Source: Lachnospiraceae bacterium MD308 (GTDB taxonomy: Bacteria; Bacillota; Clostridia; Lachnospirales; Lachnospiraceae). Taken from it: a stretch of DNA of 64,000 nucleotides. Positions 37,698 to 61,809 of this stretch are shown piece by piece. Numbering within the stretch: position 1 is the stretch's first letter; every line of letters begins with the position of its first letter. The stretch lies in assembly GCA_010206225.2 (NCBI GenBank), contig VIQU02000017.1, positions 66,769 through 130,768 on the forward strand. Direction: 5' to 3'. The translations under genes were made by a program, and so were the position numbers. Under the pieces are notes generated by a model that was not told the DNA's origin, made no database searches, and saw only the letters and a program-made list of their open reading frames with translations.

Positions 37698-40600
37698 ATG
37701 CAAACAAAACATCCACATATATCAAAAATGTCGCTTACAGGATTCGAGTTCATTCTGTTTTTCCTTATTTTATGCGGCGCGGCAATTCAGGTAACACTTG
37801 GCCAGCATCATGTGTTCTTTCTGTTCCTCCGTCTGATCTACGCTCCCGGCATGGTATTTTTGGCAGGGTTGTATGCGTCACAGGGTGATGATAATATTCT
37901 TCTTCTCTTAAAGCATGCTGCCGTCTATACTGTTTTGTTCCTGTTTTTCGGGCTTTGCAATCAAGTTCTTCTGAACCGCGAAAATCCCTTTGAAAGTATT
38001 ATCCGCATGGTTACCATGCAAAAAATCCCGATGACTTCTGAGATGTTTTTTACCGCTTCTGTCCTTTTTTTGTGTTCTGCACTGACAGCAAGATATATAG
38101 AACGGCTTTATAAAAGGAAATATCTATGGATCATATCAGGGATTCTGGCATCTTTTATTTCTTTTTTTCCGTCAGATATATTTGGATATCCGATCATCGG
38201 TGTATTCATAGACTGCAATGTTTATGACTGTATTGCTCTGCTTCCGTATCTCGGATATTTTATTGCGGGAATCTTTCTAGGGAAAGCTTCTGGAGCATTT
38301 TCTAGAAATCTTTTTATCGGCAGTTTTGTTATAACATTTGCGGCCGTGGCGCTCGTCTTTACACCTTTAAAACCGGCGGCTCTGACTATAGCAGCCGTAC
38401 TTCCTGTGTCTGTCATCTATCTGTTTTCCATATACTGCCCGCCATACAGGAAGATGACTGAAAAAATCCTTATGCTCTATAACAGAATCGTCTTGATACT
38501 AAAAGACTGGTATCGGGACTTTATGACAAGCAACCGCAGGGCACTCCCCCTGTATTTTGCTGTATACACCATGATGTTTACAGTTATGGCAGTGTGCGTA
38601 TTCTTTTCCTTTATTGAATATGGCAACAGCATTGCATGGATGCATGATGCGATTTCACAATACATTCCGAGAATCCATTATTTTACAAACTATGTACACG
38701 AATGCATTGCGCAGCTTTTGAAAGGTGATTTTAATTTCCCATCCTACAGCTTCCGCGTAGGGCTTGGCAACACAGTTCCTTTAAGCTATGAACCGGTTTA
38801 CTGGCTGTTCGCCCTGTTTGATTCTTCTCATGTGGAGGCCGCTTACAATATCATCACACTGTCTCGCTTTTTTTTAGCCGGACTTTCCGCATCAGTTTTC
38901 TTTCTGTACCACAAGAGAGGATATTTTGAAAGTCTTCTAGGAAGCATGATGTATACTTTCTGCGGTTTTGCAATCTATGCGGGCGTGCTTCACGCGCATT
39001 TTATTGCGCCTATGATCTTTCTGCCTCTCCTCATGCTTGCAACAGAGGAAGTCTTCCGCAAAAAACGCTGGTACCTGTGTACGGTTTTTGTCGCTGTCGC
39101 GCTGCCTGCCAATTACTACTTTATCTATATGAGTACGATCGCAATGGGAATCTATTACATCGGACGGTTTCTGTTTACAAAAAACCGCGAAAGGAAAAAC
39201 TGGAAATATTTCTTTACAACCACTGTAACGTTTGCGGGTGCTTACCTTTTAGGAGTCGTGATAGGAAATATCTCTCTGTTCACTTCCTTTGCCTCTTTTG
39301 TAGGTTCTGGACGCGCAGGGAATTCAGAGATAGCAACCGCCTCTTTATTCAACTATGGAAACGGCTGGCTTACGCGTCTGTATGCCTATTTTATTTCCGC
39401 ACCCTCCTCTCCGGGAGCATGGTTGAAGCTTGGATTTATTCCTCTCTCCTATATCGCCGTTGTAATTCTTCTTATGAAGAAAGGCAATCAGCTTTTGAAA
39501 TTTTTATTCCTGATCTGTGTTGCTTTCTGCGCCTTTCCGATCGCAGCATTTATATTCGGCGGATTCAGCACTATTACAAACAGATGGTGCTATATCTTTG
39601 CATTATTGGTTTCCTTTATTACGGTAAGATTCATCCCGGAATTCCGGAATCTGACCCGCAAAGAATTAAAGATTCTGTTTCTATCACTGTTACCTTATAT
39701 GCTGATCGTATTCATGAACCGCAATTACCGCACAGAGCATACTTTAGTCTCCCTTGCTATTCTTCTCTGTAACTATATCGTTATTTTATGTATGAATGAA
39801 AAACTGAATATCATGAATAAATATATCGCTCAGGCTGCTCTTCTCCTTTTGTGCTGCGGCGCGTTGACATTAACCGCCTTTTATCAGTACCGCGACGGAA
39901 AAAACACCACCCCGGATTCTTTCGCGAAACGGAGGCAAGTGATCGACGAGATTTCAGATACGCCGATGAGAGTACTGGACAACTATCCTGACGCCAGCTT
40001 TTACCGTGTATCTACTGCTGAAATCCCACGGAAAAACCTATGCTCCTCCCTTGTTATGGATTATAACAGTATCGCTACATTTTCCAGCACGATCAGCGGT
40101 CCTGTGATGGACTACAATGTCAGTATGGCAAACACCGCATGGAACCTTGTACAACTTGGCGGTTTTGACAACCGCACCTTTATGAACACCCTTGCCTGCG
40201 TAAAATATTATGCGCTGGCAGAAGATGAAACACCCCGTCTTCCATATGGCTATGAAAAAACTCCGGCCAAAGAAGGAACAAAAGGATCCTACAGCATTTA
40301 CAAAAATAACTATGTTCTCCCCTTCGGCTGCACTTATGATAATGTCATAAGCACAGATGAGCTAAATAATTACAGTCCGCTGGAACGTCAGGAAGTGATG
40401 CTTCAGGCTGCCGTACTGGAAGATAAACCAGACAGCACCCATTTTCAGGACAACTCGCCTGCAGCCACCGCTGTAGAAGCAACAATAACAGATTATGAAA
40501 CCAAAGACATAAAAACAGATGGAAAGCTTGCCGAGATAACCAAACCAGGAGCCTCTCTGACACTTAAGTTCGACGGACTTGAGAACTCAGAAACTTATCT

Positions 40601-41195
40601 GGTATTGGACGGATATTTAAATCCCGGGAAAAATAACAGCCAGTGTACTGTAAATATGAATCTGGCCTGCGATCTCTACCGCCGTAATTTCACATTCCGC
40701 TCCATTAACCACACTTACAGTACCGGGCAAAAAAGCCACCTGTTCAATCTTGGCTACCGCAAAGAATCGGCTGATACTATTACCGTCACTTTCAATGAGG
40801 CCGGAATCTTTACTGTTGACTCCCTGAAGATCTACAGCCAGCCTATGGATAAGTATGCTTCCTATATTGGCAATCTGACGGAAAACAAACTGGAAAATGT
40901 AGAGATGATGTCCAACACCATAACCGGAAACATATCGGTAAACAAAGACAAGCTCCTTGTCTTAAGCCTCCCCTATCAAAAAGGATGGACTGCCTATGTT
41001 GACGGAAAAGAGACAGTGATTCAGAAGGCGAATCTCATGTATTCCGGAATTTTTCTCGAACCGGGAGACCATGAGATTAAGCTCATATTCAAACGCCCCG
41101 GCGTCAAAGCCTCTCTAACTCTATCTGCTGTCGGAATCGTTATTTTTATCATAGCCTTGATTATCCGGCGCAGACGTATTAAAATAAAGAAATAA
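37698..41195 (+). CDS. YfhO-family GT-C-like membrane protein with N-terminal membrane extension
   Basis: YfhO proteins are polytopic, GT-C-like glycosyltransferases; Bacillus YfhO adds GlcNAc to lipoteichoic acid using a lipid-linked sugar made by CsbB. This protein has 1165 residues. The YfhO core begins near residue 285 (SNRRALPLYFAVYTMMF) with the acidic external loop MHDAISQYIPRIHYF and many further helices. An external C-terminal domain runs from about 760 to 1130, and a final helix ends in RRRRIKIKK. The first 280 residues form about seven additional helices not seen in Bacillus YfhO (about 860 residues). They loosely resemble acyltransferase-3 membrane proteins. AAGGAG fixes ATG 37698. 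Confidence 0.85.
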   Translation: MQTKHPHISKMSLTGFEFILFFLILCGAAIQVTLGQHHVFFLFLRLIYAPGMVFLAGLYASQGDDNILLLLKHAAVYTVLFLFFGLCNQVLLNRENPFESIIRMVTMQKIPMTSEMFFTASVLFLCSALTARYIERLYKRKYLWIISGILASFISFFPSDIFGYPIIGVFIDCNVYDCIALLPYLGYFIAGIFLGKASGAFSRNLFIGSFVITFAAVALVFTPLKPAALTIAAVLPVSVIYLFSIYCPPYRKMTEKILMLYNRIVLILKDWYRDFMTSNRRALPLYFAVYTMMFTVMAVCVFFSFIEYGNSIAWMHDAISQYIPRIHYFTNYVHECIAQLLKGDFNFPSYSFRVGLGNTVPLSYEPVYWLFALFDSSHVEAAYNIITLSRFFLAGLSASVFFLYHKRGYFESLLGSMMYTFCGFAIYAGVLHAHFIAPMIFLPLLMLATEEVFRKKRWYLCTVFVAVALPANYYFIYMSTIAMGIYYIGRFLFTKNRERKNWKYFFTTTVTFAGAYLLGVVIGNISLFTSFASFVGSGRAGNSEIATASLFNYGNGWLTRLYAYFISAPSSPGAWLKLGFIPLSYIAVVILLMKKGNQLLKFLFLICVAFCAFPIAAFIFGGFSTITNRWCYIFALLVSFITVRFIPEFRNLTRKELKILFLSLLPYMLIVFMNRNYRTEHTLVSLAILLCNYIVILCMNEKLNIMNKYIAQAALLLLCCGALTLTAFYQYRDGKNTTPDSFAKRRQVIDEISDTPMRVLDNYPDASFYRVSTAEIPRKNLCSSLVMDYNSIATFSSTISGPVMDYNVSMANTAWNLVQLGGFDNRTFMNTLACVKYYALAEDETPRLPYGYEKTPAKEGTKGSYSIYKNNYVLPFGCTYDNVISTDELNNYSPLERQEVMLQAAVLEDKPDSTHFQDNSPAATAVEATITDYETKDIKTDGKLAEITKPGASLTLKFDGLENSETYLVLDGYLNPGKNNSQCTVNMNLACDLYRRNFTFRSINHTYSTGQKSHLFNLGYRKESADTITVTFNEAGIFTVDSLKIYSQPMDKYASYIGNLTENKLENVEMMSNTITGNISVNKDKLLVLSLPYQKGWTAYVDGKETVIQKANLMYSGIFLEPGDHEIKLIFKRPGVKASLTLSAVGIVIFIIALIIRRRRIKIKK

Positions 41196-41217
41196 ACAAA
41201 TATTAGGAGAAACTAAA

Positions 41218-42345
41218 ATGATTAAATTTAATATCCCTCCCTGTACGGGAAAGGAAAATGAATATATCGCGCAGGCCATCGCAAGCCACAAAATCTGCGG
41301 CGATGGGGAATTCACAAAAAAATGTAACGAATGGATAGAATCCCATACCCGCACGTCAAAGGCGCTCCTTACCACATCCTGCACGCATGCCACTGAGATG
41401 GCCGCACTGCTCTGTGACATTCAGCCGGGGGACGAGGTGATCATGCCCTCCTATACGTTCGTGTCTACCGCCAATGCTTTTGTGCTCAACGGGGCCACGG
41501 TCGTATTCGTTGATATCCGTCCAGATACATTGAATATTGACGAAAATCTGATTGAGGAAGCTGTCACGCCAAAGACTAAGGCCATCGTTCCTGTTCATTA
41601 TGCCGGTGTTTCCTGCGAGATGGACAAGATCATGGAGATTGCCAGGCAGCATAATCTGAAAGTCATCGAGGATGCCGCTCAGGGAGTTATGTCCGAATAT
41701 AAAGGAAGACCTTTAGGCACCATTGGCAATTTTGGATGCTTTAGCTTCCATGAGACAAAAAACTATAGCATGGGTGAAGGCGGCTGCCTTTTAATCCGGG
41801 ACAAAGAAATGATTGAAAAGGCTGAGATCATCCGTGAAAAAGGGACGAACCGAAGCAAATTCTTCCGCGGACAGGTCGATAAATATACATGGGTATCGGC
41901 GGGCTCCTCTTATCTTCCAAGCGAGCTGAATGCTGCATATCTGTTTGCACAGCTTGAACAGGCACAGACCATATTTGATGACCGCATGAAATCATGGACT
42001 CTGTATTATGAGCTTCTCAGTCCTCTGAAAGAGGCCGGAAAGATTTCTCTCCCGGTTGTTCCTGATAACTGTAAACATAATGCACATATGTTTTACATAA
42101 AGGCAACCGATTTAAAAGAACGCACCGCTCTGATCGAATATCTGAGAAGGCAGGATATTTATTCTGTCTTCCACTATATTCCGCTTCATAGCGCCCCGGC
42201 CGGCAAACAGTACGCGAGATTTTGCGGGCAGGATATCTATACTACCAAAGAAAGCGAACGGCTTCTCCGGCTTCCTATGTACTACGGGCTAAAATCGGAA
42301 GATGTGTATTTTGTATGCGAAAAGATAATCCAATTTTATCAATAA
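41218..42345 (+). CDS. rffA: dTDP-4-amino-4,6-dideoxygalactose transaminase (RffA/WecE type)
   Basis: RffA converts dTDP-4-keto-6-deoxyglucose to dTDP-4-amino-4,6-dideoxygalactose with glutamate and PLP. The 375-residue protein follows the E. coli enzyme almost along its length: KICGDGEFTKKC, GDEVIMPSYTFVSTANAFV, VPVHYAGVSCEMD, EDAAQGVMS, CFSFHETKNYSMGEGG with the PLP lysine at about K181, REKGTNRSKFFRGQVDKYTW, and FHYIPLHSAPAG. AGGAGAAACTAAA precedes ATG 41218. The acetyltransferase RffC that follows in E. coli is absent. It is the second gene of the yfhO cassette. Confidence 0.94.
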   Translation: MIKFNIPPCTGKENEYIAQAIASHKICGDGEFTKKCNEWIESHTRTSKALLTTSCTHATEMAALLCDIQPGDEVIMPSYTFVSTANAFVLNGATVVFVDIRPDTLNIDENLIEEAVTPKTKAIVPVHYAGVSCEMDKIMEIARQHNLKVIEDAAQGVMSEYKGRPLGTIGNFGCFSFHETKNYSMGEGGCLLIRDKEMIEKAEIIREKGTNRSKFFRGQVDKYTWVSAGSSYLPSELNAAYLFAQLEQAQTIFDDRMKSWTLYYELLSPLKEAGKISLPVVPDNCKHNAHMFYIKATDLKERTALIEYLRRQDIYSVFHYIPLHSAPAGKQYARFCGQDIYTTKESERLLRLPMYYGLKSEDVYFVCEKIIQFYQ

Positions 42346-42368
42346 TTACAGGAGACTCGAAAGAAAAG

Positions 42369-43307
42369 ATGTTATATTCAATCATTATACCCTGCTACAA
42401 TTCCGCAAAGACTATCCGCAAAGTTGTAGAACTTACGATTCAGGAACTGGAGCGTCAGAAAAGAACCCCCTATGAATTCGTGCTGGTGGACGATTTTTCC
42501 CCTGACGGCGGAGCTACCGTTCAGGAGTTGGAATCCCTCGCCGATGATTACTCTTGCGTAAAAATCGTAGAGCTTGCTAAAAATTCCGGCCAGCACAATG
42601 CGGTGATGGCCGGGCTGAATTATGCTGACGGCGATACGCTGATCGCTATGGATGACGATATGCAGACGCATCCTTCCCAGCTCCCTGTTCTCTTTGAGGA
42701 ATTTGACAAGGGCTATGACATCGTGTACGGCTACTATCCTCAAAAAAAACACAGTCTGTTTCGCAATTTCGGAAGTTATATCAATTACTTGTCCGTGCGG
42801 ATTCTCATTGGAAAGCCTAAGGATATGAAGACATCCAGTTTCTGGATCATACGCAGGTTCATCCGGGATTATGTCATTCAGTATAAAAGCCAATACACGC
42901 ATTTGCAGGGACTGTTCCTTCGAACAACGCGCAATATCAGCAGCGTTCCTGTCAAGCACTTTGAACGGGAGGTAGGAACTTCCAACTATACCTTTAAAAA
43001 GCTCATCGGGCTTTGGTCTAATATCATGGGATACTCCATTGTACCGCTCAGGCTTGCCACTTACTGCGGTTATACCTTTTCCCTGCTGGGAATACTGGGA
43101 GCCGCTTTTATCGTAATTCGGAAACTTCTCGTTCCCTCCATGGCGATTGGCTGGCCCTCCATGATGGTGGCCATCTGCTTCTTTTCCGGAATCAACCTGC
43201 TGTTTCTGGGACTGATCGGTGAATATCTAGGCAGGATGTTCCTCGGTATGAGCCGTTATCCGCAATTTGTTGTCCGAAAAATATATACACAAAAGGAGGA
43301 TTCTTAA
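42369..43307 (+). CDS. ArnC/CsbB-like undecaprenyl-phosphate glycosyltransferase (GT2)
   Basis: Enzymes of this type load a sugar from a nucleotide donor onto undecaprenyl phosphate on the inner membrane face. The 312-residue protein has a GT2 domain (SIIIPCYNSAKTIRKV, FVLVDDFSPDGG, NSGQHNAVMAGLNYADGD, MDDDMQTHP at 94-102 with the metal-binding aspartates). Next comes HFEREVGTSNYTFKKLIGL, then two C-terminal helices around GYTFSLLGILGAAFIVI and FFSGINLLFLGLIGEYLGR. The GQHNAVMAG, EREVG-S-Y-F and GLIGEYLGR patterns match ArnC. The start at 42369 is 14 bases past AGGAGA, so initiation may be weak. Confidence 0.9.
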   Translation: MLYSIIIPCYNSAKTIRKVVELTIQELERQKRTPYEFVLVDDFSPDGGATVQELESLADDYSCVKIVELAKNSGQHNAVMAGLNYADGDTLIAMDDDMQTHPSQLPVLFEEFDKGYDIVYGYYPQKKHSLFRNFGSYINYLSVRILIGKPKDMKTSSFWIIRRFIRDYVIQYKSQYTHLQGLFLRTTRNISSVPVKHFEREVGTSNYTFKKLIGLWSNIMGYSIVPLRLATYCGYTFSLLGILGAAFIVIRKLLVPSMAIGWPSMMVAICFFSGINLLFLGLIGEYLGRMFLGMSRYPQFVVRKIYTQKEDS

Positions 43308-43308
43308 C

Positions 43309-44490
43309 ATGAAAAAAATTATGATTCTTGGCGCCGGCATCTATCAGGTTCCGCTCATCAAAACTGCGCGCAAACTTGGCATTTACTCCATTGTCGTCAG
43401 CATTCCGGGCAATTACCCCGGATTTGAATTGGCAGACAAAGTATATTATGAAAATACGACGGATTATGATAAAATACTTGAAATCGCCAAAGAGGAACAG
43501 ATAGACGGCGTTGTGACCGCCGGCACAGATGTAGCTGTGATTACCATCGGAAAAGTATGCGACGAATTAAATCTTTGCGGTCTTTCCTTTGAGTCTGCAC
43601 AGATTGCCGCCAACAAACTCCTAATGAAATCAAAATATGAAGAGCATGGTGTCAGAACAGCCAAGTTCCGCGAAATCCCTCTCAGCGCAGATGACGTATC
43701 TTACCGCGTATCGGATTTAAGCTTCCCGTTGATCTTCAAATCGGTTGATTCCTCCGGAAGCCGCGGCATTGTAAGAGTTGATTCTGAGGCAGATTTTGAT
43801 GCCGCCATACAAAATGTAAAGGAAAATACGAGATCTGATTATTATATCGTAGAAGAATTTATAGAGGGAGAAGAATTCGGCGCTCAGGCATTCGTGTACC
43901 GCGGAGAGGTCACTTTTATCCTTCCCCACGGCGACTACGTATTCAAGGGCGATACCGGAGTTCCGATCGGACATTTCGCCCCTTATGAACTTGACGCCTC
44001 CGTAATTGCAGATGCAAGAGAACAGCTCACTGCCGCCATCCATGCGATGGGACTTGACAACTGCGCCATCAACGCAGATTTTATCCTGAAGGACGGAAAA
44101 ACCTATGTCCTTGAGATCGGTGGACGTTCCGGGGCAACTTGTCTGGCAGAATTAGTATCAATCTATTACGGTTTCGATTATTATGAGAAAATACTGCAAT
44201 GTGCTTTGGGCGAGAACACTGTATTTGAATGTGATTCTCATGCAGTACCCAATGCCAGTATGCTGCTTATCAGCAGTAGGGACGGCACAATCAGGGAGCA
44301 GACCGACAAAAACCCGGATAACCCGAATATCTATGATGTACAATTTGATCATAAGCCCGGCGACAGCGTTTACAAATTTCATGTAGGCCCTCATCGTATC
44401 GGCCATGTCATCACCAAAGGAGACACCTTAAAACAGGCGGTCGACACATTGCATGAGGCATTAAAAAACATTGAAATAAAAGTTGAATAA
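43309..44490 (+). CDS. ATP-grasp ligase, possible amino-sugar acylating enzyme
   Basis: This 393-residue protein has a pre-ATP-grasp Rossmann-like domain (KKIMILGAGIYQVPLIKTA, DGVVTAGTDVAVITIGK). An ATP-grasp fold follows: KLLMKSKYEEHGVRTA, then the nucleotide-binding FPLIFKSVDSSGSRGI, VEEFIEGEEFGAQAF, and the metal-binding INADFILKDGKTYVLEIGGRSG (two overlapping motifs near residues 255-280). Such enzymes join a carboxylate to an amine through an acyl phosphate. It starts two bases after the GT2 stop codon with AAGGAGG inside that gene. In this context the amine could be the 4-amino group of the RffA product or of a lipid-linked sugar; this is inference. Confidence 0.85.
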   Translation: MKKIMILGAGIYQVPLIKTARKLGIYSIVVSIPGNYPGFELADKVYYENTTDYDKILEIAKEEQIDGVVTAGTDVAVITIGKVCDELNLCGLSFESAQIAANKLLMKSKYEEHGVRTAKFREIPLSADDVSYRVSDLSFPLIFKSVDSSGSRGIVRVDSEADFDAAIQNVKENTRSDYYIVEEFIEGEEFGAQAFVYRGEVTFILPHGDYVFKGDTGVPIGHFAPYELDASVIADAREQLTAAIHAMGLDNCAINADFILKDGKTYVLEIGGRSGATCLAELVSIYYGFDYYEKILQCALGENTVFECDSHAVPNASMLLISSRDGTIREQTDKNPDNPNIYDVQFDHKPGDSVYKFHVGPHRIGHVITKGDTLKQAVDTLHEALKNIEIKVE

Positions 44491-44505: not shown

Positions 44506-45936
44506 CTATTTTTTGAAATCCTTCACTACCTTTAAAAATTGCGGCAGGATCCATTTTACCGCAAGAACTGTTACTGCAAGGATGATACCGTACCTTATAT
44601 ACCACTGCAATACGAACAATTCCATTGTAGCAAGATTAAGAGCGAGATAAACAGCAGATATTATCACGCTCTTTTTTAGTGAGACCACCCTTCTTCCGGT
44701 AATCTTCTTTTCCAGATATCCCTGAAGCACCAGCAGGATAAAGTAGCTTGCAGCCGTCGTATAAGCGGCCGCCATGTATCCAAACCGGATAATACACACA
44801 TAATTCAGAATCACGTTGATGACCATCGTAAAAATCGTTCCCACCGCCACATAAGCAGTCTTTTTATAATAGTTTTGGATTGCCGTATAGATATAGCTAT
44901 AAAACCGAAGCAGTGTCCCGGTCACCATAGGCGCAATGAGGAGCACCGCCATACGATATTCTTTAGAACCGAGCACCGCTACAATCTCCGGCGCCAGAAC
45001 CACCAGATACCACGACAGGATTCCAAAGCCATGCATAAGGATCATCCAAGGGTTTTCGATATCGGCCGTCTCTCCCTGTGAGATCTTCTCATACATCCAC
45101 GGCAGAAAGGCATTCCATACTGAATCCTCCACAATCCATATGATGAAAGAAATCGTTGTCCCTAACGCAAAGATACCCGTATAATCGTAGCCTGCCAGAA
45201 ACTGGATCATGATCTTGTCCGCCTGATTCATAATCTGGATCGAAAGCATTTCCGGAATCAGAGGCAGACTGTATTTCAGAGCGTATTTCCAATATTCCCT
45301 CTGAATGAACTTTCCCCCCTGCTTCCATAAAAGAACTGCCACGATCAGACCGCCGATTACCTGCGGCACATAAAATCCCCATATACGAAGCTCCACCAGC
45401 TTGTCAAGATACCCGTGTACACGTCCCCAGTAGATAAGAAAAATAGACAATACCGTAGCCGGTACAATCGTGACCGTCGTAATAAAAATGCTCGCTTTAT
45501 AACGCATCATTTGCTTCTCCCGCCGCTGCATGAAAAGGATGCTGGTATAACCGAACACATATAAAAATGCCATAAAAAACATCACATCCGTCATTCCCCA
45601 GAGCTTCTGCACCTGCGGCCTGAAAAGCATGCATATCCCAAAAAATCCAAAAATAGAAAAATACGAAAGTGTCTGCACACAAGAGACGTATCCGTTATAT
45701 TTCTCTCCCATATCATACTTGGCCCGATCTACGCTCCGAAAGAGACAGAGCGACATCACCGGCACCATAATCAGAAGCCATGACTCATAAACTCTGATCT
45801 CTCCATACTGAGCTCTGGTTAAAAGACGCGTATAGACAGGCGTCGTAAGAAATGTAAGCCCTCTTATAAAAAGCTGCCCTACAATATAAAAAATCCCTGC
45901 TTTCAGCGCAAGTTTGTTTAATTTGTTATCCTTCAT
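44506..45936 (-). CDS. Oligosaccharide flippase family protein (Wzx-like, MOP superfamily)
   Basis: This 476-residue polytopic protein has about 12-14 predicted helices and the MATE/MOP-type start KAGIFYIVGQLFIRGLTFLT followed by TPVYTRLLTRAQYGEI, typical of polysaccharide translocases. It should move undecaprenyl-linked sugars across the membrane. AGAGGAAAG precedes ATG 45936. It converges with the ATP-grasp gene with only 15 bases between stop codons and no visible terminator. It could supply the flippase missing from the yfhO cassette, or serve another glycan. Confidence 0.88.
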   Translation of the reverse strand: MKDNKLNKLALKAGIFYIVGQLFIRGLTFLTTPVYTRLLTRAQYGEIRVYESWLLIMVPVMSLCLFRSVDRAKYDMGEKYNGYVSCVQTLSYFSIFGFFGICMLFRPQVQKLWGMTDVMFFMAFLYVFGYTSILFMQRREKQMMRYKASIFITTVTIVPATVLSIFLIYWGRVHGYLDKLVELRIWGFYVPQVIGGLIVAVLLWKQGGKFIQREYWKYALKYSLPLIPEMLSIQIMNQADKIMIQFLAGYDYTGIFALGTTISFIIWIVEDSVWNAFLPWMYEKISQGETADIENPWMILMHGFGILSWYLVVLAPEIVAVLGSKEYRMAVLLIAPMVTGTLLRFYSYIYTAIQNYYKKTAYVAVGTIFTMVINVILNYVCIIRFGYMAAAYTTAASYFILLVLQGYLEKKITGRRVVSLKKSVIISAVYLALNLATMELFVLQWYIRYGIILAVTVLAVKWILPQFLKVVKDFKK

Positions 45937-46118: not shown

Positions 46119-47441
46119 ATGGCATTTGTAATCGAAAAAAAGCTTAAAAATGTCATGACATTTTATTATCTTATGAAGCTGGACAAAAAAATTCCCACTG
46201 ACCGCAATTTTATCCGTAAGCGGCAGGGAAAAAAGGTTCATGAATTGATGAAGTGCGCCTATCAGATTCCATTTTACCGCAAACGTTTTAAAGAGAATCA
46301 CCTCACTCCTGACGACTTCCATACTCCGGAGGATCTTGTCAAATTCCCGATTACAACACGGGCCGATCTCAGACTTTGGATGCAGGAGGAATACGAAAAA
46401 CACCCGGAGATGCATGAGCGGTGGACAATTCTTTCCACCAGCGGTTCTTCCGGCATTCCCTTAAAATTTATCCAAACGCAGCGGGAATCCGCCTGTGTAG
46501 ACGCGAACTGGATCCGGGTACTCATGTATGGCGGATATCATCCTCTGCGCGGAAAGCTCTTTTCTTTTGTCACAAGCCATAAAAAGATCGATCCGAAGAA
46601 GGGAGACTCGATCATACAGAAATTCGGTCTTATGCGCCGCAAAGTAGTCTCAGAGGATAACTGTGTCGGCGACGGCATCCGTGATATTATCAACGACTTA
46701 AATGAGTACAGGCCTGACGTCTTATGCTTTCGCCGAAACTGTCTTGTCCGTATGGCACTTTATGCAAAACGACATAATCTTAAGATTTACAAGCCAAATC
46801 TTTACACTCCTGTGAGCGAGATGGTCGATGATATGACAAGGAAGATTCTCACGGAAACGTTCGGAGAAGGTCTGTTCGATGCTTACGGAAGTTCCGAGAC
46901 CGGAAGCTGTGTTGTCCAGCTTCCCGGCGAAGAGCTCTACTATATCAACAGTGACACTCACGTAGTCAATATTTATGATGATGAGAACCGGCTGACCGAC
47001 GACGGACGAGTCATCGTTACAACACTGTTTAAGAAGGATTTCCCCTTCATTAATTATGAGATCGGCGACCGGGCAACTTCTGTAACGCTGGATGGCGTGC
47101 GCTATATCACATCCATTCAGGGAAGAGTCAACGATCTTGTAAGACATGAAAACAGCGCTGAGACTTCCGCCCTCTATTTGATGAAGATTCCGAATGGTAT
47201 CGTAGGAATCGCACAGTTTCGTTTTATTCAGGAATCCTACCATGATATGCGTATACAGCTTGTAAAAGATCCAAATAATAATGCTAACACAAAAGAAACC
47301 ATTGAAAGCTTTTTCCGAGAAAAGATGGCAGAGCTGTTTCAGGATGAATTTACGCTTCATTTCGAATGGATGGATGTCATACCGCCTGACAAAAACGGAA
47401 AAATGCGCTGTTTCGCATGTGAAATCAACGATGAATCTTAA
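46119..47441 (+). CDS. AMP-forming ligase, phenylacetate-CoA ligase/CapK family
   Basis: CapK-type proteins are adenylating enzymes found in polysaccharide loci. The 440-residue protein has the phosphate-binding motif ILSTSGSSGIPLKF, the nucleotide motif FDAYGSSETGSCVVQ, and the hinge and C-terminal subdomain with YEIGDRATSVTLDGV and ITSIQGRVNDLV. The terminal lysine is in PPDKNGKMRCFACEI. The substrate acid is unknown. AAAGGAGAATTT precedes ATG 46119. The next gene starts 15 bases later. A role in acyl or hydroxyacyl decoration of a glycan is inferred from the neighbours only. Confidence 0.85.
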   Translation: MAFVIEKKLKNVMTFYYLMKLDKKIPTDRNFIRKRQGKKVHELMKCAYQIPFYRKRFKENHLTPDDFHTPEDLVKFPITTRADLRLWMQEEYEKHPEMHERWTILSTSGSSGIPLKFIQTQRESACVDANWIRVLMYGGYHPLRGKLFSFVTSHKKIDPKKGDSIIQKFGLMRRKVVSEDNCVGDGIRDIINDLNEYRPDVLCFRRNCLVRMALYAKRHNLKIYKPNLYTPVSEMVDDMTRKILTETFGEGLFDAYGSSETGSCVVQLPGEELYYINSDTHVVNIYDDENRLTDDGRVIVTTLFKKDFPFINYEIGDRATSVTLDGVRYITSIQGRVNDLVRHENSAETSALYLMKIPNGIVGIAQFRFIQESYHDMRIQLVKDPNNNANTKETIESFFREKMAELFQDEFTLHFEWMDVIPPDKNGKMRCFACEINDES

Positions 47442-47456
47442 CAAAGGGGGATGATT

Positions 47457-48386
47457 ATGATAAAAAATATTGGTGTCATTGGAGCCGGCTCTGTAGGCAG
47501 TGTTTTGATCTCTCATTTGTTTCCTGCATATCCAGACAATTTTTATTTGCTGGCAACCGGAAGCCGGGCGGAGCGGATGCGAAAGAACGGGCTTTCTATT
47601 AATGACCGTACACTAAAGCCTGCCGTATATTCTGACCAGTCACAAAATATTAATCTTGATCTTCTGATCGTTGCAGTGAAAAGCTACAGTCTGGAATCTG
47701 TAATCACAGATATCCGGCCGCTAATTCAGAAAGAGACGATTATCTTACCACTCTTAAATGGTATCATGGCAACAGAGCGTCTTCAATCCTATTTTCCGGA
47801 TAACCGCGTACTCTACGGTGTCATGATCCGAACAGATGCCCATCGAACCGGCCATAAAGTATACTACATTACTCCCGGCGAAGTACAACTTGGTTACGCT
47901 TATAATAAACCCGCAGAACCTGAAGTAACGCAGGTATGCGATTGTCTGAGAGCGGCAGGATTGAATGCGAATATCTATGAGGATATGAAACGCATCCAGT
48001 GGAGAAAATGGATGCTGAACACGGGAGGCTCTCAGGCCGCTGTAGAGATTGGGGTGGAATGCGGATACTTTGAACAAGTAGACGAGATCGTAGAGATCAT
48101 AAGGCTTTGCATCGATGAGATTGTAGAACTCGCAAAAGCAGAAAAAGTCAATATTACAACAGAAGACCGGGATGATATCATACAGTTTCTTTTGGGCTAT
48201 CCTGCCCATAAGAAGATGTCCATGCTCCAGGATGTTGAGGCCGGACGTCCTATCGAGATTGAGGAATATGCCGGAACCGTGATCCGTCTTGGCGAGAAGC
48301 ATGGAATACCGACACCGGCCAACCGGCTCATCTATCTTTCCATTGAGGCGAAAAAGAAAGTATCTGAACTGAAAAAACATCTGTAA
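47457..48386 (+). CDS. Ketopantoate reductase (PanE/ApbA) family protein
   Basis: PanE reduces 2-dehydropantoate to pantoate with NADPH; paralogues reduce other 2-keto acids. The 309-residue protein has the nucleotide-binding IGVIGAGSVGSVLISHL, the segment LDLLIVAVKSYSLESVI, ILPLLNGIMATERL with the substrate-binding asparagine, and a helical C-terminal domain with IQWRKWMLNTGGSQAAV. The lysine in RKWM fits the catalytic position. AAAGGGGG is spaced for ATG 47457, not the ATG at 47451. Pairing with an AMP-forming ligase suggests a role other than coenzyme A synthesis, but true PanE cannot be excluded. Confidence 0.85.
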   Translation: MIKNIGVIGAGSVGSVLISHLFPAYPDNFYLLATGSRAERMRKNGLSINDRTLKPAVYSDQSQNINLDLLIVAVKSYSLESVITDIRPLIQKETIILPLLNGIMATERLQSYFPDNRVLYGVMIRTDAHRTGHKVYYITPGEVQLGYAYNKPAEPEVTQVCDCLRAAGLNANIYEDMKRIQWRKWMLNTGGSQAAVEIGVECGYFEQVDEIVEIIRLCIDEIVELAKAEKVNITTEDRDDIIQFLLGYPAHKKMSMLQDVEAGRPIEIEEYAGTVIRLGEKHGIPTPANRLIYLSIEAKKKVSELKKHL

Positions 48387-49476: not shown

Positions 49477-49481
49477 AACCT

Positions 49482-50183: not shown

Positions 50184-50200
50184 AATGAAATTCCCTTCCA

Positions 50201-52228
50201 TTAATGATTTGTATATGTAAAATGCATATAATCTTTCGTTGACTTCCAGTTTCCTCCCCAATAAAAGCCCTGTTTTTTCCAGATAGCTACGACCTGCGGA
50301 GTGATAGAATAGGGATCGATACCCGGCTTGTATTTCCCTTCTGTCACACCGATCATCGGATTGGAATTCCAGTTCAAATCCACAACGCAACCATAACTGT
50401 GGTGCGAACGATTCCTTCCTGACGCCATACTTCTCCAGTTATAAGTATCCGTATCTTCCGCTCTTACCGGAAAACCGACTGCATACATTTCCTGAAAAGC
50501 TTTCATAAATTTCTTCTCTAAAGCTCTGTGCACCCGAAGCTGCATCGTGCCCGGCATGCCTTCTGCATCCTTAATCGGCACCGTAATCGTCACAAGATAT
50601 TGCTCCATCTCTGCTTTCGTAGTCGGAACACCGCCCGGGAACAGTGTGTACAGCTTCTGCCCGTCTGAAAACGTCTCTTTCTTTACCGCCGAAAGTCCTC
50701 CGTAATATGTCTTTGAACCAGACTTGCGGAATGCCCTTACTTTAAAATAGTATGCAACTCCCGGCTTCAGCTTCTTTGCCGTATACGATACTTTTCCCGC
50801 ACCCTTTACTTTTCCTGCATAGACATACTTTCCTTCTTTCGCCTCGCTTTTATAGATCTCATAACCCTGCGCCCCGGCCTCCTTTTTCCAGATAACCTTT
50901 GCCTTAGTCTCGGCCGAACATTTTGCCGATTTGATCGTAACAACGCCTAATTTCCTGTTTTCACTCACGGCCGCAGACCATGCGCTGTATTCCTGCTTCG
51001 TCTTTGTTTTTTTCTTTACTTTTACCTTGACATTTCTGTAAGCACGAACTTTATAGTAATACGTTTTTCCAAAGTTCGCCTTTTTGTCGGAATAACTTAC
51101 CTTTGAACCTGATTTACAAGTGTATATTTTCTTGAATTTTCCCTTCGGCGATGTACTCCGGTATACGACATATCCCGAAGCTGCCGCTACTTTCTTCCAT
51201 TTCAGATTAATCTTAGAATAACTGGAAGTTGTCTTTACTACCGGTGTTCCGAACTTAATCTGAAACTTGACTGTTCTCGATCCTTTAAAATTACCGATAC
51301 CATTGATACGAATGGCTGCTGTTCCCATCTTCTTATTATTTGAATAGGCAGCCTTATAATCTTTTCCTAATACCAGATTCTTTCCCTGATACGAAAGCGT
51401 CACTTTGGGCTTTACCTGTTTCCCGGTATAATCAACTGTTTTAGCTGCCTGCAGTTTGCACTTTTTGATATCCGCCGGAGTAATCTTAAACTTGAGTGTC
51501 TTTGTACCTGTATAAGTATCTTCTTTTCTATCAGCTTCCTTTTCCTCCGTCTGCGCGCTTTCCTGATCTGCCCCGTCTTTCCCGGTCAGTACAATGGAAG
51601 CCTCGCCGGTTTTGACATTGTTCAGATACTCTATTTTATAACATTCCGGGGCAATCAGCTTTTCATTTTCCTCAGTTCTGCCTTCCGTCTTCTCCAAATC
51701 TTCTGCCGCGGCATGGTATACGACTTCCACTTCCGGCTTTATTTGAAAACCTGTATAGACAAACTCTGTATTTCCCGATTTCATCCTTACTTCTATAGTA
51801 TCCGAACCCAAATCATAATGCTTTGCTTCTAAAGCAGCTTTATATTCCATCTCTTTGGTCTCTTTTTTAACCTCATCGTCTGACTCCGAGCAAGATACAT
51901 CTGGTGTGTCTTTTGACTCTCCTGTCTCTTCTGGTTCTTCTGTCCCTCCTGATTCTTCCTTGTTTTCCGGCTCTTCTGTTTGTATTGTGTCATCACTCTT
52001 TGAAGGTTCTTCCGGTAAAACAATACTATCTTTCTTTGAAGGATCCCCCGGAACTTCTTCCGGTGTGTTGTCCGGTTCAATTTGAGATGTATTGTTTGAA
52101 TCTTCCTTTCTTTGATCCTCCGCCTCTTTTGCCGTTTCATCCGTTTTTTCAAACTCTTCTGCAGATACAGGCAGCGAAGTACACAATAGAACAGCGCCGA
52201 TCAAAATCATGCTTAATCTTTTTCTCAT
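50201..52228 (-). CDS. Secreted M15-family D,D-/L,D-peptidase with Fn3-like repeats
   Basis: This 675-residue exported protein has a signal peptide (RLSMILIGAVLLCTSLPVSA) and an acidic Glu/Asp/Thr/Ser linker to about residue 125. Then come Ig-like or bacterial repeat segments with YTGKQVKPKVTLSYQGKNL, and two Fn3-like modules (GYVVYRSTSPKGKFKKIY, GYEIYKSEAKEGKYVYAG). The C-terminal M15 peptidase domain has zinc-site motifs SHHSYGCVVDLNW and WGGNWKSTKDYMHFTY. It should trim peptidoglycan stem peptides. Its ATG overlaps the stop codon of the glycerophosphotransferase gene (ATGA), so it is coupled to polymer synthesis. Its linker and Fn3 style resemble the GH25 lysozyme. Confidence 0.9.
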   Translation of the reverse strand: MRKRLSMILIGAVLLCTSLPVSAEEFEKTDETAKEAEDQRKEDSNNTSQIEPDNTPEEVPGDPSKKDSIVLPEEPSKSDDTIQTEEPENKEESGGTEEPEETGESKDTPDVSCSESDDEVKKETKEMEYKAALEAKHYDLGSDTIEVRMKSGNTEFVYTGFQIKPEVEVVYHAAAEDLEKTEGRTEENEKLIAPECYKIEYLNNVKTGEASIVLTGKDGADQESAQTEEKEADRKEDTYTGTKTLKFKITPADIKKCKLQAAKTVDYTGKQVKPKVTLSYQGKNLVLGKDYKAAYSNNKKMGTAAIRINGIGNFKGSRTVKFQIKFGTPVVKTTSSYSKINLKWKKVAAASGYVVYRSTSPKGKFKKIYTCKSGSKVSYSDKKANFGKTYYYKVRAYRNVKVKVKKKTKTKQEYSAWSAAVSENRKLGVVTIKSAKCSAETKAKVIWKKEAGAQGYEIYKSEAKEGKYVYAGKVKGAGKVSYTAKKLKPGVAYYFKVRAFRKSGSKTYYGGLSAVKKETFSDGQKLYTLFPGGVPTTKAEMEQYLVTITVPIKDAEGMPGTMQLRVHRALEKKFMKAFQEMYAVGFPVRAEDTDTYNWRSMASGRNRSHHSYGCVVDLNWNSNPMIGVTEGKYKPGIDPYSITPQVVAIWKKQGFYWGGNWKSTKDYMHFTYTNH

Positions 52229-54819
52229 CTCTGGTATCCTTTCCAGTCACGTATTTCTTTCATAATTCTTTCGCAATTTGAATCATCTGTATATTGGAAA
52301 AAGTCTTCTACCCTGTCAAGATATACGCGTTCCATTTTACATCCGTTATTGATCATTTCGCACAAACTCTCTATCAAGCTGTCATATTCCTCAACAATCG
52401 GTCCAAATCCCATTGTATCGTACTTATAGATCCCTTCCTCATACTGCGGCGGCAGTTCATTGGGATGATAATATAATACCGGTTTTTTCATATACGCAAA
52501 ATCAAATTGAATACCGGAATAGTCTGTCACCATAAGACTGGATTCCGTTAACATTTTCTCGTAAGACACTTCCGATACTGCCGGAATAATAGATGTATAA
52601 TCATTTTTGTCATAATCGTCAACCTGTGAGCTTAACGTCGGATGTATCAGAAATACGATCTTATAGCCATTCTTTTCTGCCGCAGCCAGCAGCCTTTGAT
52701 CATTGATCAGACGATTGTATATCTCAAAATATTTCGTATGCTTAAATTCAGGATTATATTCTTTTGATGTTCCAAAAGCATTTCCTGTAATTACGATATT
52801 TCTTCTCCAAGTGGGCGCGATTAATATTTGTTTCTGGTCATTATTTTTTAATCCGTCATATCTTGGGCAGCCTGTCAGACGAAGTTCTCCCTTTTGATAA
52901 CCGTATACTTTTCTGTTAAGTCCGGCAATCTCATATTTTGAGGCGCAAAAATACATATGCGTGTTATCTTTTAACCGATTCTGATACTGCGCTATATTTT
53001 GAATTGTTAATCCATGCTGAATACATACGATCTCAGCGTTCAAAAGATTCTTTAAAAATCTCTGCAATCCTTTAAATCCGCAGTACGGCCACACTCCCGC
53101 ATGTGTGGCAAACACAATCTGTGTATTCAGCAGCACTAATTTCTGACGCAATGATCCGAAGACCAATATCTGTCTTCGATATTTCTTTTTCAGTCTTTTG
53201 TAATCTAACGATTCTTTGGTAACGATATAATAACTGTTAACGTCCGGACAGTTCCTGACACAATAGGAAAACAGATATTCTCCATTGTCTCCCGCTTTAT
53301 ACAGCTTGTCAAAAAATACCCAGTTTTCCTTTTTCCTGTAATGTTTTCTGCTGATCCAGTATAACAGCCTCAATTTCACTGCTTCGATTCTTTTTGCGGA
53401 TTTTTCTTTAAACAACATTTTGGCAATCAATCCGGTTTCCAGTATAAACTTTTTTTTGGGAACGAGATCATCAATCCAAATTGTCTCCGATGAAAATGTT
53501 ATAATCTTATCCTCAAAAGTCCAATATGACCAATGACTTCTTTCCAGTCTGGCCGAAACTTTTCTGTGGAACTGGATAGGAATGGTTATTTCCTTTCCTT
53601 TCAAGCGCCCTTTAAATTGTATTCCGGTCCTTTTATCCAGATCTTTTTTCGCTATTTCAAATTGAAATGCCGTGTAACGATGAACAGTCCTCCCGAAAAA
53701 GGCATCCAGATTGTACAATTCTGTATTTTCCCATTCGCATTTTTCTCCATTCACCAATACTTCAAAATCTTCTTCGATATGATCCAGACAGTAATCCGCT
53801 ATAATCTCTCCGTCAATAACAAGATGTTCCTCTTTATAATTAATTGCTTTTATACGCGCTTTCAGACAATCGACATCATATACATTTTCCCCGAATAAAT
53901 ATTCTAACTTCTTAGAATCAGCGGAACAGGCTCTTACTTCAAATTCCGGCTCTTTTCCATACTTTTCTTTTAGCAGCAAATACGCGAAAAATTTAACAAA
54001 GCCCTGTCTTTTGCGCGTTTCAATCAGATAGACGTCATCAATATACCGAGTCAGCTCCCGGACCTGATCAAAAAATATATCAACCTGTTCGTCGCTCAGA
54101 ACAAACTTATTTCTTTCGTTTTGATTCATAAAGAAACGTCTTAATATCATATGGACAAACAGTCTTTGTTCTGTCGGAGTCAGCTCCCCTTTTCTGGCGC
54201 ATGGCAGGGCAAAATCCCTGAAATATGGAATATACCAATTTTCATCATATGGTTTTAAATAGTAACGCGCTTGTTTTTCCAGACCTTCCTCTGTATAGTT
54301 CTCCATCGCCTTGACTACAGGTATCTGTTCTTTTTCACGCGTTAGAGCCAGCACGATTTTATCGGTAAAGAAAGGGGCTTCTTTTTCCTCAACAGCTATT
54401 TTCTTTAATGTCTCTGTTTTAAAAAAATACCTTCCGAAATAAAAAGGATTCGGATTCATCCCGCCTGTTTTATACATGTCCGCTTCAGAATTTTCCTTCA
54501 TTATCTTCTGCGACAGAATATCCTCATCCGTATTGTTAAGTACCCTTAACGCTTCCTTTATCCGATCCATGCCAAGTATATTTTTTTCATTGTAAAAAAT
54601 CACGTACTTTGACATTGTATTGTTCAAAAACGAACAATACTGTTCATAACATTCGCCTTTTTCTCCTAAATGAATCTCTAATTCTTCTATTCCTTTTGCC
54701 CTATCTAACGCCTCTTGATTTTTCTCAAAAAATTCTTCCCTGCTTTCTAAAAATATATTGATTGTTAACAGGCTCATAAAAAATACCCTCTGCATGAATA
54801 CTCCGATCGATTGATCCAT
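52225..54819 (-). CDS. Large CDP-glycerol glycerophosphotransferase, probable polymerase (TagF-like)
   Basis: This 864-residue protein probably extends a glycerol-phosphate chain. The C-terminal 390 residues carry the family motifs: FATHAGVWPYCGFKGL, IVCIQHGLTIQNIAQY, LTGCPRYDGL, LIAPTWRRN, IHPTLSSQ and VTDYSGIQFDFAYM. The N-terminal 470 residues hold no motif I know. They include a beta-rich stretch (about 300-440, with LVIDGEIIADYCLDH) that could be a separate binding domain. AAAGGAA precedes ATG 54819. It is the largest of four paralogues in the operon. Confidence 0.88.
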   Translation of the reverse strand: MDQSIGVFMQRVFFMSLLTINIFLESREEFFEKNQEALDRAKGIEELEIHLGEKGECYEQYCSFLNNTMSKYVIFYNEKNILGMDRIKEALRVLNNTDEDILSQKIMKENSEADMYKTGGMNPNPFYFGRYFFKTETLKKIAVEEKEAPFFTDKIVLALTREKEQIPVVKAMENYTEEGLEKQARYYLKPYDENWYIPYFRDFALPCARKGELTPTEQRLFVHMILRRFFMNQNERNKFVLSDEQVDIFFDQVRELTRYIDDVYLIETRKRQGFVKFFAYLLLKEKYGKEPEFEVRACSADSKKLEYLFGENVYDVDCLKARIKAINYKEEHLVIDGEIIADYCLDHIEEDFEVLVNGEKCEWENTELYNLDAFFGRTVHRYTAFQFEIAKKDLDKRTGIQFKGRLKGKEITIPIQFHRKVSARLERSHWSYWTFEDKIITFSSETIWIDDLVPKKKFILETGLIAKMLFKEKSAKRIEAVKLRLLYWISRKHYRKKENWVFFDKLYKAGDNGEYLFSYCVRNCPDVNSYYIVTKESLDYKRLKKKYRRQILVFGSLRQKLVLLNTQIVFATHAGVWPYCGFKGLQRFLKNLLNAEIVCIQHGLTIQNIAQYQNRLKDNTHMYFCASKYEIAGLNRKVYGYQKGELRLTGCPRYDGLKNNDQKQILIAPTWRRNIVITGNAFGTSKEYNPEFKHTKYFEIYNRLINDQRLLAAAEKNGYKIVFLIHPTLSSQVDDYDKNDYTSIIPAVSEVSYEKMLTESSLMVTDYSGIQFDFAYMKKPVLYYHPNELPPQYEEGIYKYDTMGFGPIVEEYDSLIESLCEMINNGCKMERVYLDRVEDFFQYTDDSNCERIMKEIRDWKGYQR

Positions 54820-54866
54820 GCATTTTCCTTTCCCTCATCATGTGTTTTTCGGTAGAAAACTTCTTT

Positions 54867-56522
54867 CTAAAATAACTTTTTGATCACTTTATCTGTGGCA
54901 TGACCGTCATAATTCGCAAAATTCTTTTCTACAAACTTGTAAATCTTTTCTACTTCATAATCTTCTTCACGAAGCGCCTGCATCATCTCTTCAAACGTAT
55001 CGCATACTTTTCCAGGAGCGCTCTCTTTTACGCTTCTGTGAACTCCTCGCGACAATTCATACAATTCTCTGTCCGGAGTAAAAAATACTACCGGTCTTTT
55101 AAGAAGAGAATATTCATAATAGTTCGATGAATAATCCGTAATCAATACATCCGTAATATAATATAGATCATTAATATTAGGATAAGATGAAAAATCTACG
55201 ATTCTGTCCTTATATTTTTCCGGTATTTTTATTGCCTCCTGCACAAACGGATGCATTTTTATAAGAAATATCTTATCTTCTCCACAATAATCACTGATGT
55301 CATCCATGTCTAACCAAGAATAATCATAATACGCGTACTTTTGTCCCGGTCCTCTGTATGTCGGAGCAAACATGATAATTTTTTTACCTTTCAGATTTGG
55401 ATACTTTTTATAGAATCCCTCTTTAAACTCCTTAATTACACCTTCATCCAAAAAGCCGTCCAGCCTTGGCATGCCAACCGGAAGAAATGCCTCTTTCTCT
55501 ATTCCAAAAACTTCCGAGAATACTTTTACCAGTCCATCTGATCCGGTCAACACATAATCATATTGTTTGTGGCAGGAACCTGTTGGAAACGGCGAACCGT
55601 CTTTTCCAAACCTGCAGTATCCTACCGCCTTAAACCCTTCCCCCGCATGCCATACCTGTATTAATTTTGTACGCTTATTTAATTTTAAAAACCCAAAAAC
55701 AGGGACATAATCATCTACAAATATATAATCCTGTCTCGCAATCTTATAAATTACTTTGATCCAGCTCATAATACTTTTATGGTTTCCGACTGCCTTGCGG
55801 AAAGAATACTCTATCTTATACTTCTTATCAAGTCCATACTTTTTGAGACCATCGTCTATATATTTTAAATTCCCCCACAGAGCATCGCGGGTCTCACTCA
55901 TAAACAGAATATGCTTCCCATCCTTCGGCAGGATACGCTCCCAAAACTGGTAAAACATTTTGATGGAAAATATCGCTGCAGACATATATATTCGGTCAAA
56001 CTTGCCCTTTATGGTCCGAGCTTCCTGAACATAATGCCTTTTCTTCCAGCCCTCGTTCTGAATCATAAAACAGCTTTTGAGCAAAAGCACCAAATACCTT
56101 TCGTCAACGGTAGCGCACGAAAAAGAAACTGTATAGGCATATTTATCTCTTCCATAGCGGAAAATACGGGAATTCTCTTCAAACTGATAGGCCACGTCAT
56201 GGTCCGTATAGCAAAGATATTTTTCCCCATTCACTGTCGCTGTAATTCTCCACATACCATTATCCAGAAATTGTCTTCCTTTCATCGCGGTTATGTTACA
56301 GCAAAAACAATATTCTTTATTTACATATTCATCATACCGAAGCGGAATCGCTTTTACAACCTTCGCATCTTCGATATGTTTGTGTTCATCCAAATCAATA
56401 CGGTCTACTAATTCCAGCCGGAAGTTTGCGCGCTCCATACACTCTGTACGAATCTTCATATGCAGAAATATTCTTTCCCACTTCAGTTCCGATACCTTAA
56501 ACACAATTTCTTTTTTCTCCAT
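54867..56522 (-). CDS. CDP-glycerol glycerophosphotransferase family protein
   Basis: This 551-residue TagB/TagF-family enzyme has an N-terminal beta-rich part (about 1-165) and a catalytic part with LIQVWHAGEGFKAVGY, PVGMPRLDGFL, MFAPTYRGPG, LIKMHPFVQEA and ITDYSSNYYEYSLLKRPVVFF. The histidines and aspartate that serve catalysis are all present. GGGGGAAT precedes ATG 56522. The extra N-terminal domain suggests a chain-extending rather than a priming enzyme, but that is an inference. It lies between tagD and the larger paralogue. Confidence 0.9.
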   Translation of the reverse strand: MEKKEIVFKVSELKWERIFLHMKIRTECMERANFRLELVDRIDLDEHKHIEDAKVVKAIPLRYDEYVNKEYCFCCNITAMKGRQFLDNGMWRITATVNGEKYLCYTDHDVAYQFEENSRIFRYGRDKYAYTVSFSCATVDERYLVLLLKSCFMIQNEGWKKRHYVQEARTIKGKFDRIYMSAAIFSIKMFYQFWERILPKDGKHILFMSETRDALWGNLKYIDDGLKKYGLDKKYKIEYSFRKAVGNHKSIMSWIKVIYKIARQDYIFVDDYVPVFGFLKLNKRTKLIQVWHAGEGFKAVGYCRFGKDGSPFPTGSCHKQYDYVLTGSDGLVKVFSEVFGIEKEAFLPVGMPRLDGFLDEGVIKEFKEGFYKKYPNLKGKKIIMFAPTYRGPGQKYAYYDYSWLDMDDISDYCGEDKIFLIKMHPFVQEAIKIPEKYKDRIVDFSSYPNINDLYYITDVLITDYSSNYYEYSLLKRPVVFFTPDRELYELSRGVHRSVKESAPGKVCDTFEEMMQALREEDYEVEKIYKFVEKNFANYDGHATDKVIKKLF

Positions 56523-56537
56523 ATTATTCCCCCACTG

Positions 56538-56954: not shown

Positions 56955-56963
56955 CTTTTGCTC

Positions 56964-58304: not shown

Positions 58305-58320
58305 GTTATCCTCCTTATGT

Positions 58321-59139: not shown

Positions 59140-59154
59140 GCTGACACTCCTCTG

Positions 59155-59961: not shown

Positions 59962-59985
59962 AGTCTAACCTCCTACATTCAACAA

Positions 59986-61792: not shown

Positions 61793-61809
61793 GATTCTCC
61801 TCCACATAT

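Follow-up and report, generated by a model that had tools for sequence, protein, structure and literature searches.

A gene cassette of Lachnospiraceae bacterium MD308 predicted to place an acylated amino sugar on the cell surface

The stretch of DNA analysed here, 64,000 nucleotides of Lachnospiraceae bacterium MD308 (contig VIQU02000017.1 of assembly GCA_010206225.2, positions 66,769 to 130,768; hereafter the window), carries at 37698-44490 four plus-strand open reading frames (ORFs) for a YfhO-type GT-C glycosyltransferase, a WecE-type transaminase, an ArnC-like glycosyltransferase of family 2 (GT2) and an ATP-grasp ligase, with intergenic gaps of 22, 23 and 1 bases (Table 1). An earlier note, made from the letters alone, had described four tightly packed genes of these identities, and both the packing and the identities were borne out, the latter by matches to PF09586, TIGR02379, ArnC structures and the LAL_C2 and ATP-grasp_4 families. 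The cassette is nevertheless larger than the four genes then described: genes for a Wzx-type flippase, a PaaK-like ligase and a PanE-like reductase follow directly downstream, and these, like a 285-residue N-terminal domain of the YfhO protein, had been overlooked. With these genes this Gram-positive gut bacterium probably builds an amino sugar, couples it to an acid or an amino acid, moves it over the membrane on a lipid and places it on the surface.

Table 1. Features of the cassette and its surroundings in the window (aa, amino acids; PLP, pyridoxal phosphate; dTDP, deoxythymidine diphosphate)
Feature	Position	Strand	Basis or remark
YfhO-type GT-C glycosyltransferase, 1165 aa	37698..41195	+	About 285-aa N-terminal membrane domain plus YfhO core
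N-terminal membrane domain of YfhO	37698-38550		
WecE/RffA-type dTDP-4-amino-4,6-dideoxygalactose transaminase	41218..42345	+	TIGR02379, 649.1 bits (cut-off 434.85)
ArnC/PgfS/CsbB-like GT2, predicted undecaprenyl-phosphate sugar transferase	42369..43307	+	ArnC PDB chains
ATP-grasp ligase with LAL_C2, predicted N-acylating (amino acid or hydroxy acid)	43309..44490	+	Passes the gathering scores of PF18603 and PF13535
Wzx-type flippase with the lipid-linked sugar as predicted cargo	44506..45936	-	PF01943, 55.7 bits against a cut-off of 28.2
PaaK/CapK-like adenylate-forming ligase, predicted activator of a second carboxylic acid	46119..47441	+	Core motifs; co-occurrence
PanE/ApbA-family 2-keto acid reductase, candidate 2-hydroxy acid supplier	47451..48386	+	TIGR00745, 206 bits, over cut-off
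Three proteins adjoining the cassette, including an M15-type carboxypeptidase	48478-52228	-	
TagF-type polymerases, TagD, TagGH-like transporter, ribitol-5-phosphate-type cytidylyltransferase	52225..63012	-	Candidate source of the acceptor polymer, linked by proximity only
TagD	56571-56945		Over cut-off
IspD-family cytidylyltransferase	59986-60747		Passes NF001183 and TIGR00453

The transaminase is the sole protein of the genome over the TIGR02379 cut-off, its best PDB chain is 4piw (E 3e-163), and it does not pass the ArnB model (192.7 bits, cut-off 631). Elsewhere in the genome rmlB (481.5 bits) and rmlA (460.2 bits) lie side by side, both over their curated cut-offs, and therefore a supply of dTDP-4-keto-6-deoxyglucose is available; the absence of this pair, which according to the earlier note would speak against the pathway, does not hold. 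In a relative (L053) the supply genes stand within the cassette itself, as one run of about 10 kb comprises YfhO, rmlB, rmlA, a pair of small membrane proteins, PaaK, WecE, GT2 and ATP-grasp, with rmlB and rmlA again over cut-off (487 and 464 bits); one of the small proteins matches ArnF and ArnE at 38 and 37 bits, below the cut-offs, and the other matches nothing. Together, the rml genes and this run support the earlier proposal of an Arn-like pathway, of the CsbB/YfhO kind, to a lipid-linked 4-amino-4,6-dideoxygalactose (Fuc4N).

The distribution of the genes was surveyed in 299 genomes, evenly drawn from a larger group and covering 298 genera of the family. The ATP-grasp ligase was found at E<=1e-40 in 36 genomes, and WecE at E<=1e-100 in 96, in 95 of them over the curated cut-off. 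All 26 genomes with the ligase at E<=1e-52 carry a WecE over cut-off (Fisher p 8e-15), and with all 36 ligase genomes the association has a p value of 5e-14. Separately, 64 of the 96 WecE-bearing genomes have no cassette-type ATP-grasp at E<=1e-40. PaaK of the window type (E<=1e-70) is confined to 9 genomes: it occurs in 8/8 of those whose ATP-grasp is at least 63% identical to that of the window (the next is 49%) versus 1/291 of the others. In the sole other genome (G104), a single run (L165) contains PaaK, an ArnC/PgfS-like GT2, a divergent ATP-grasp and a WecE that scores 626 bits, over cut-off; a tenth genome, G081, gave a weak PaaK match (E 4e-21).

Gene order was read from two sets of loci. 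The family set comprises 25 loci (L049-L073) and covers all but one (G105) of the 25 other genomes with the ligase at E<=1e-52; the scan of named genomes comprises 80 loci (L081-L160), the best 80 of at least 115 relatives, at least four of which coincide with loci of the family set, and its records are mostly titled as metagenome assemblies or uncultured isolates. In 24/25 family loci and 70/80 scan loci no more than 1.5 kb separates the GT2 from the ATP-grasp ligase, and this pair is the best-conserved core of the cassette. Over 70 loci, sequence distances of the two proteins show a correlation of 0.77; where WecE is present as well (37 loci), the values are 0.75 for GT2 with ATP-grasp, 0.48 for ATP-grasp with WecE and 0.54 for GT2 with WecE, all these figures being inflated by common ancestry. 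The excess for the first pair would fit a GT2 that has to accept the product of the ligase. Two such pairs stand within a single locus in L086 and L098. In the Paenibacillus loci L122 and L123 the ATP-grasp gene adjoins a weakly WecE-like gene, and a strong ArnC-like GT2 is absent from these loci.

ArnC structures are the closest solved relatives of the GT2, with a match of 303 residues (E 1e-40) that spans the full length, and the gene is over the cut-off of the Pfam GT2 model; the curated ArnC model is matched at 154.9 bits, below its cut-off of 529. The motifs GQHNAV, DDD and GLIGEYLGR, pointed out earlier, are all present. A structural comparison of the GT2 with ArnC and of the YfhO core with ArnT had also been proposed, and the best PDB matches of the GT2 bear out the first likeness. 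The YfhO core, over cut-off in PF09586 (355 bits, residues 294-1143), was modelled by AlphaFold with a predicted local distance difference test score (pLDDT) of 85, and the model matches GT-C structures: the best Foldseek match was the GT-C arabinosyltransferase AftD (E 3e-10, template modelling score 0.44 by query length), with AftA (1.6e-3) next and then an archaeal oligosaccharyltransferase (4.5e-3); unrelated proteins had similar E-values. ArnT was absent among the 50 matches shown of 1455. A tandem pair of YfhO genes stands upstream of GT2 and ATP-grasp in L095, L107 and L109.

The N-terminal domain of YfhO was modelled with a pLDDT of 74; at E 0.001 the model resembles no fold in the PDB (best E 0.24), and the domain has no Pfam match up to E 1. 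An Acyltransferase-3 identity is accordingly unsupported for the domain of the window. Among relatives, L125 (1e-6, 28.5 bits, cut-off 31) and L115 (0.0045) match Acyl_transf_3, and three of ten members do so at E <= 1; because these two relatives match weakly, the domain may be a decayed acyltransferase. In L111 a stand-alone member adjoins the GT2.

In the ATP-grasp ligase, whose LAL_C2 region is the C-terminal domain known from L-amino acid ligases, residues K103, K107, K144, D257, E269 and R273 are invariant in 16 sequences. A profile search of the PDB placed 4dim first and L-amino acid ligases next, ahead of purine and carboxylase enzymes. Five relatives (L060, L063, L070, L072, L073) have the ligase in fusion with a PLP enzyme from the D-cysteine desulfhydrase family, and in L059 and L062 that enzyme stands alone beside the ligase; the best NCBIfam models of this partner, scanned in one protein, are D-cysteate sulfo-lyase and D-cysteine desulfhydrase, both below cut-off. 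Such a fusion to an enzyme of amino acids suggests that the ligase uses an amino acid. The 4-amine of Fuc4N is the most likely site of acylation.

The partner of the ligase changes with its lineage. Of the 46 scan loci whose ATP-grasp is at least 50% identical to that of the window, 37 have PaaK and none has the PLP enzyme at a distance of up to 4 kb, whereas in the 34 loci below 50% the counts are 2 and 15; the PLP-enzyme type includes L132 and L145, loci of Fusicatenibacter saccharivorans and Blautia caecimuris, and L081 of Lachnospiraceae bacterium 3-2 is of the window type; in loci with 4 kb available on both sides, PaaK is present in 23/28 versus 2/24. More than one ATP-grasp gene occurs in 15 of the 34 more distant loci versus 4 of the 46 closer ones, and two such genes stand in tandem alongside the GT2 in L130, L138, L153, L154 and L160. 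A tree of the ligase, built by a quick search, left 23 of its 78 inner branches open; on it the PaaK label clusters, needing 7 changes versus a shuffled mean of 27.4, although near relatives would group regardless; the flippase labels need 4 changes over 45 labelled of 81 rows, a count given without a shuffle comparison. In the clade of the window PaaK takes the place of the PLP-enzyme partner, and parts swap around the core: PaaK, the PLP enzyme or a second ATP-grasp for one another, and Wzx for an ArnE/ArnF-like pair.

A Wzx homologue was found in 15 of the 80 scan loci, in 11 of them between ATP-grasp and PaaK on the strand opposite to ATP-grasp, and members of the ArnE/ArnF-like small-protein pair in 31; the two types never occur together in one locus. 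Four small proteins from relatives were scanned; three matched ArnE/ArnF models below the cut-offs and one matched nothing. Of the loci with neither Wzx nor the small-protein pair, at least L085 has another Polysacc_synt-type flippase.

The PaaK-like protein matches PaaK-type NCBIfam models below their cut-offs and has no Pfam match at 0.001. Its core motifs lie at 106, 256, 313 and 426, and several motif residues and the closing lysine are invariant in all 9 compared. By profile, phenylacetate-CoA ligases are nearest, followed by AjiA1 and another PaaK-like ligase, so that the enzyme may make an acyl-CoA or an acyl adenylate. PaaK adjoins the PanE-like gene in the window, L081, L083, L084 and L166. 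The PanE-like protein is the sole TIGR00745 match over cut-off in the genome, and a role in pantothenate synthesis is unlikely because panB was not found there; the same search was positive in 11 of 14 control genomes, and the genome is rated 97% complete, so that panB may lie in a gap. The weakest link of the model is the step in which, we infer, PanE turns a 2-keto acid into a 2-hydroxy acid that feeds PaaK.

From the observed gene identities, linkage and co-occurrence we infer the substrates, step order, acceptor and final charge of a pathway that, on balance, we hold to be the likelier account. RmlA and RmlB would produce dTDP-4-keto-6-deoxyglucose, which WecE would convert to dTDP-Fuc4N; the ATP-grasp ligase would acylate the 4-amine with a carboxylic acid, the best candidate being an amino acid; the ArnC-like GT2 would transfer the acylated sugar onto undecaprenyl phosphate; Wzx would flip the lipid-linked sugar across the membrane; and a wall polymer or some other acceptor at the surface would receive it from YfhO. 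A second acid, possibly the 2-hydroxy acid made by PanE, would be activated by the PaaK-like enzyme for addition to the same group.

Beyond the cassette, the window holds a glycerol-phosphate polymer cluster about 8 kb away, as the earlier note had said, and it is real: beside TagD it has four TagF-type genes (PF04464) and TagGH-like genes, of which the TagH model match (304 bits) falls below the cut-off of 320. Because a cytidylyltransferase that passes the ribitol-5-phosphate model NF001183, as well as the ispD model TIGR00453, shares the cluster with TagD, the nearby polymer may be a mixed alditol-phosphate. TagF genes occur in 6 of the 80 scan loci, and therefore no strong teichoic link to the cassette can be drawn. 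The minus-strand genes that adjoin the cassette encode a protein without a Pfam match and an M15-type carboxypeptidase, and the protein between these two we take, by its motifs, to resemble an L,D-transpeptidase.

The earlier note had expected the decoration to put positive charge on the wall. This is unsupported, because the ligase is expected to act on the amine of Fuc4N and another acid-activating enzyme follows. A version of the same pathway in which a sugar with a free amine, or one bearing an amino acid, adds positive charge to teichoic acid while PaaK and PanE serve elsewhere would draw on the LAL_C2-type ligase, which would leave a free alpha-amine, and on the nearness of the TagD/TagF cluster; it is unlikely, given the few loci with TagF and the tie of PaaK to the window-type ATP-grasp in the survey and the scan, which makes a second acyl step likely. 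Still less probable is that the GT2 and YfhO put the modified sugar on secreted proteins, as in the Pgf system of protein glycosylation in Streptococcus mutans. The cassette shares with Pgf a PgfS-like GT2 (143 bits) and a PgfM-like YfhO (76 bits to the NCBIfam PgfM2 model), scores that are below the cut-offs of 500 and 1500, but it has extra ligases and is surrounded by wall-polymer genes. As for the ligase, it could be a PurT-like formyl-transferring enzyme yielding a formamido sugar, as does the formylating enzyme ArnA; PurT models match it at 57 and 54 bits, below their cut-offs, and the name of the ArnC model implies a formamido sugar. We regard this as very improbable, since L-amino acid ligases outrank the PurT-like chain in the PDB profile search (97, 83 and 82 versus 66.5 bits), LAL_C2 is present and the fusions join the ligase to an amino-acid PLP enzyme.

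Several points weigh against the favoured pathway of N-acylation followed by a second acid. A fixed unit of the four genes, for which the earlier note had proposed to look, is not supported: the order YfhO-WecE-GT2-ATP-grasp is exact in 8 of the 80 scan loci (L081-L084, L103, L105, L116 and L125, with YfhO cut by the contig end in L082 and L116), and in the stretches fetched WecE over threshold is missing from 43 loci, YfhO from 55 and both flippase types from 34. The hidden Markov models that label the loci were self-built from the window and the survey loci, with thresholds set by hand. Among the ten genomes with a weaker ATP-grasp match, four have no WecE over cut-off and six do. The best PDB match of the ligase, 4dim, bears the name of a purine enzyme; the D-cysteine desulfhydrase-family enzyme was not found in the genome of the window, in a search without a positive control; and L110 has both PaaK and PLP enzyme. 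PaaK may make an acyl-CoA alone, because phenylacetate-CoA ligases are its nearest relatives by profile, and PanE occurs in 3 of the 80 loci, each of them a close relative, and in a further genus (L166). The acceptor, moreover, need not be teichoic acid, because the GT2 and YfhO also match Pgf models.

In its architecture the cassette fits, by its gene content, the multi-component transmembrane glycosylation systems of the CsbB-GtcA-YfhO kind. According to the passages of PMC8035078 that deal with them, these combine a GT-A GT2 that makes the undecaprenyl-phosphate (C55-P) sugar, a flippase and a GT-C, a Wzx flippase being permitted instead of GtrA; the sugars named there are GlcNAc (N-acetylglucosamine), galactose and glucose, whereas the cassette is predicted to use an amino sugar. 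The ArnC/CsbB-class GT2, the Wzx-type flippase and the YfhO GT-C are shared, here as known from their genes. The cassette departs from those systems in having a dedicated transaminase, together with one or two ligases that activate acyl groups.

The Arn pathway adds 4-amino-4-deoxy-L-arabinose (L-Ara4N) to lipid A and protects Gram-negatives from antimicrobial peptides. The cassette would share with it a 4-amino sugar, an ArnC-like GT2, a GT-C and, in relatives, the ArnE/ArnF-like small-protein pair; it differs in that the transaminase is of WecE and not ArnB type, YfhO stands in for ArnT, ATP-grasp replaces the formyltransferase and Wzx replaces ArnE/ArnF. Lipid A is not expected, because the host is Gram-positive. 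Judged from its genes, the cassette would work like Arn and yet is not Arn, because curated Arn models are not passed. Enterobacterial common antigen, a Wzx/Wzy polymer with Fuc4NAc, employs a WecE of the same transaminase family, which the protein of the window joins over the curated cut-off; the cassette differs in its ArnC-like GT2 and YfhO. The L-amino acid ligases BL00235 and BacD, relatives of the ATP-grasp ligase by profile, couple amino acids to amino acids, whereas the predicted acceptor here is an amino sugar. Among surface polysaccharide genes of Clostridium, an ATP-grasp amino acyl ligase, CA_C2189, has been described, for which the authors weigh the option that a different protein transfers the acyl group to an amino sugar; the cluster table of that paper lists no YfhO, GT2–ATP-grasp pair or PaaK, and by this description the cluster is set apart (PMC4000134). 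In the open-licence PMC literature no paper was found that pairs ATP-grasp with WecE, YfhO or D-cysteine desulfhydrase.

A broader proposal is put forward more tentatively than the pathway itself: the cassette could represent a widespread, modular, Gram-positive counterpart of Arn in gut Clostridia and relatives, in which the GT2–ATP-grasp pair installs N-acyl-Fuc4N while acyl-supply enzymes and flippases are exchanged between lineages. Acyl supply would come from PaaK, in some cases together with a PanE-like reductase, or else from a second ATP-grasp or a PLP enzyme resembling D-cysteine desulfhydrase. If true, common gut Firmicutes decorate their surface with an acylated amino sugar by means of a machine with interchangeable parts, and species would display differing surface acyl groups, readable by phages, lectins and host peptides. 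The machine would include a dedicated family of ligases with a directly testable substrate, and the solved relative of that family, 4dim, is named as a purine enzyme. The cassette furnishes a named set of genes with which the role of this decoration against cationic peptides, phages and host lectins may be probed.

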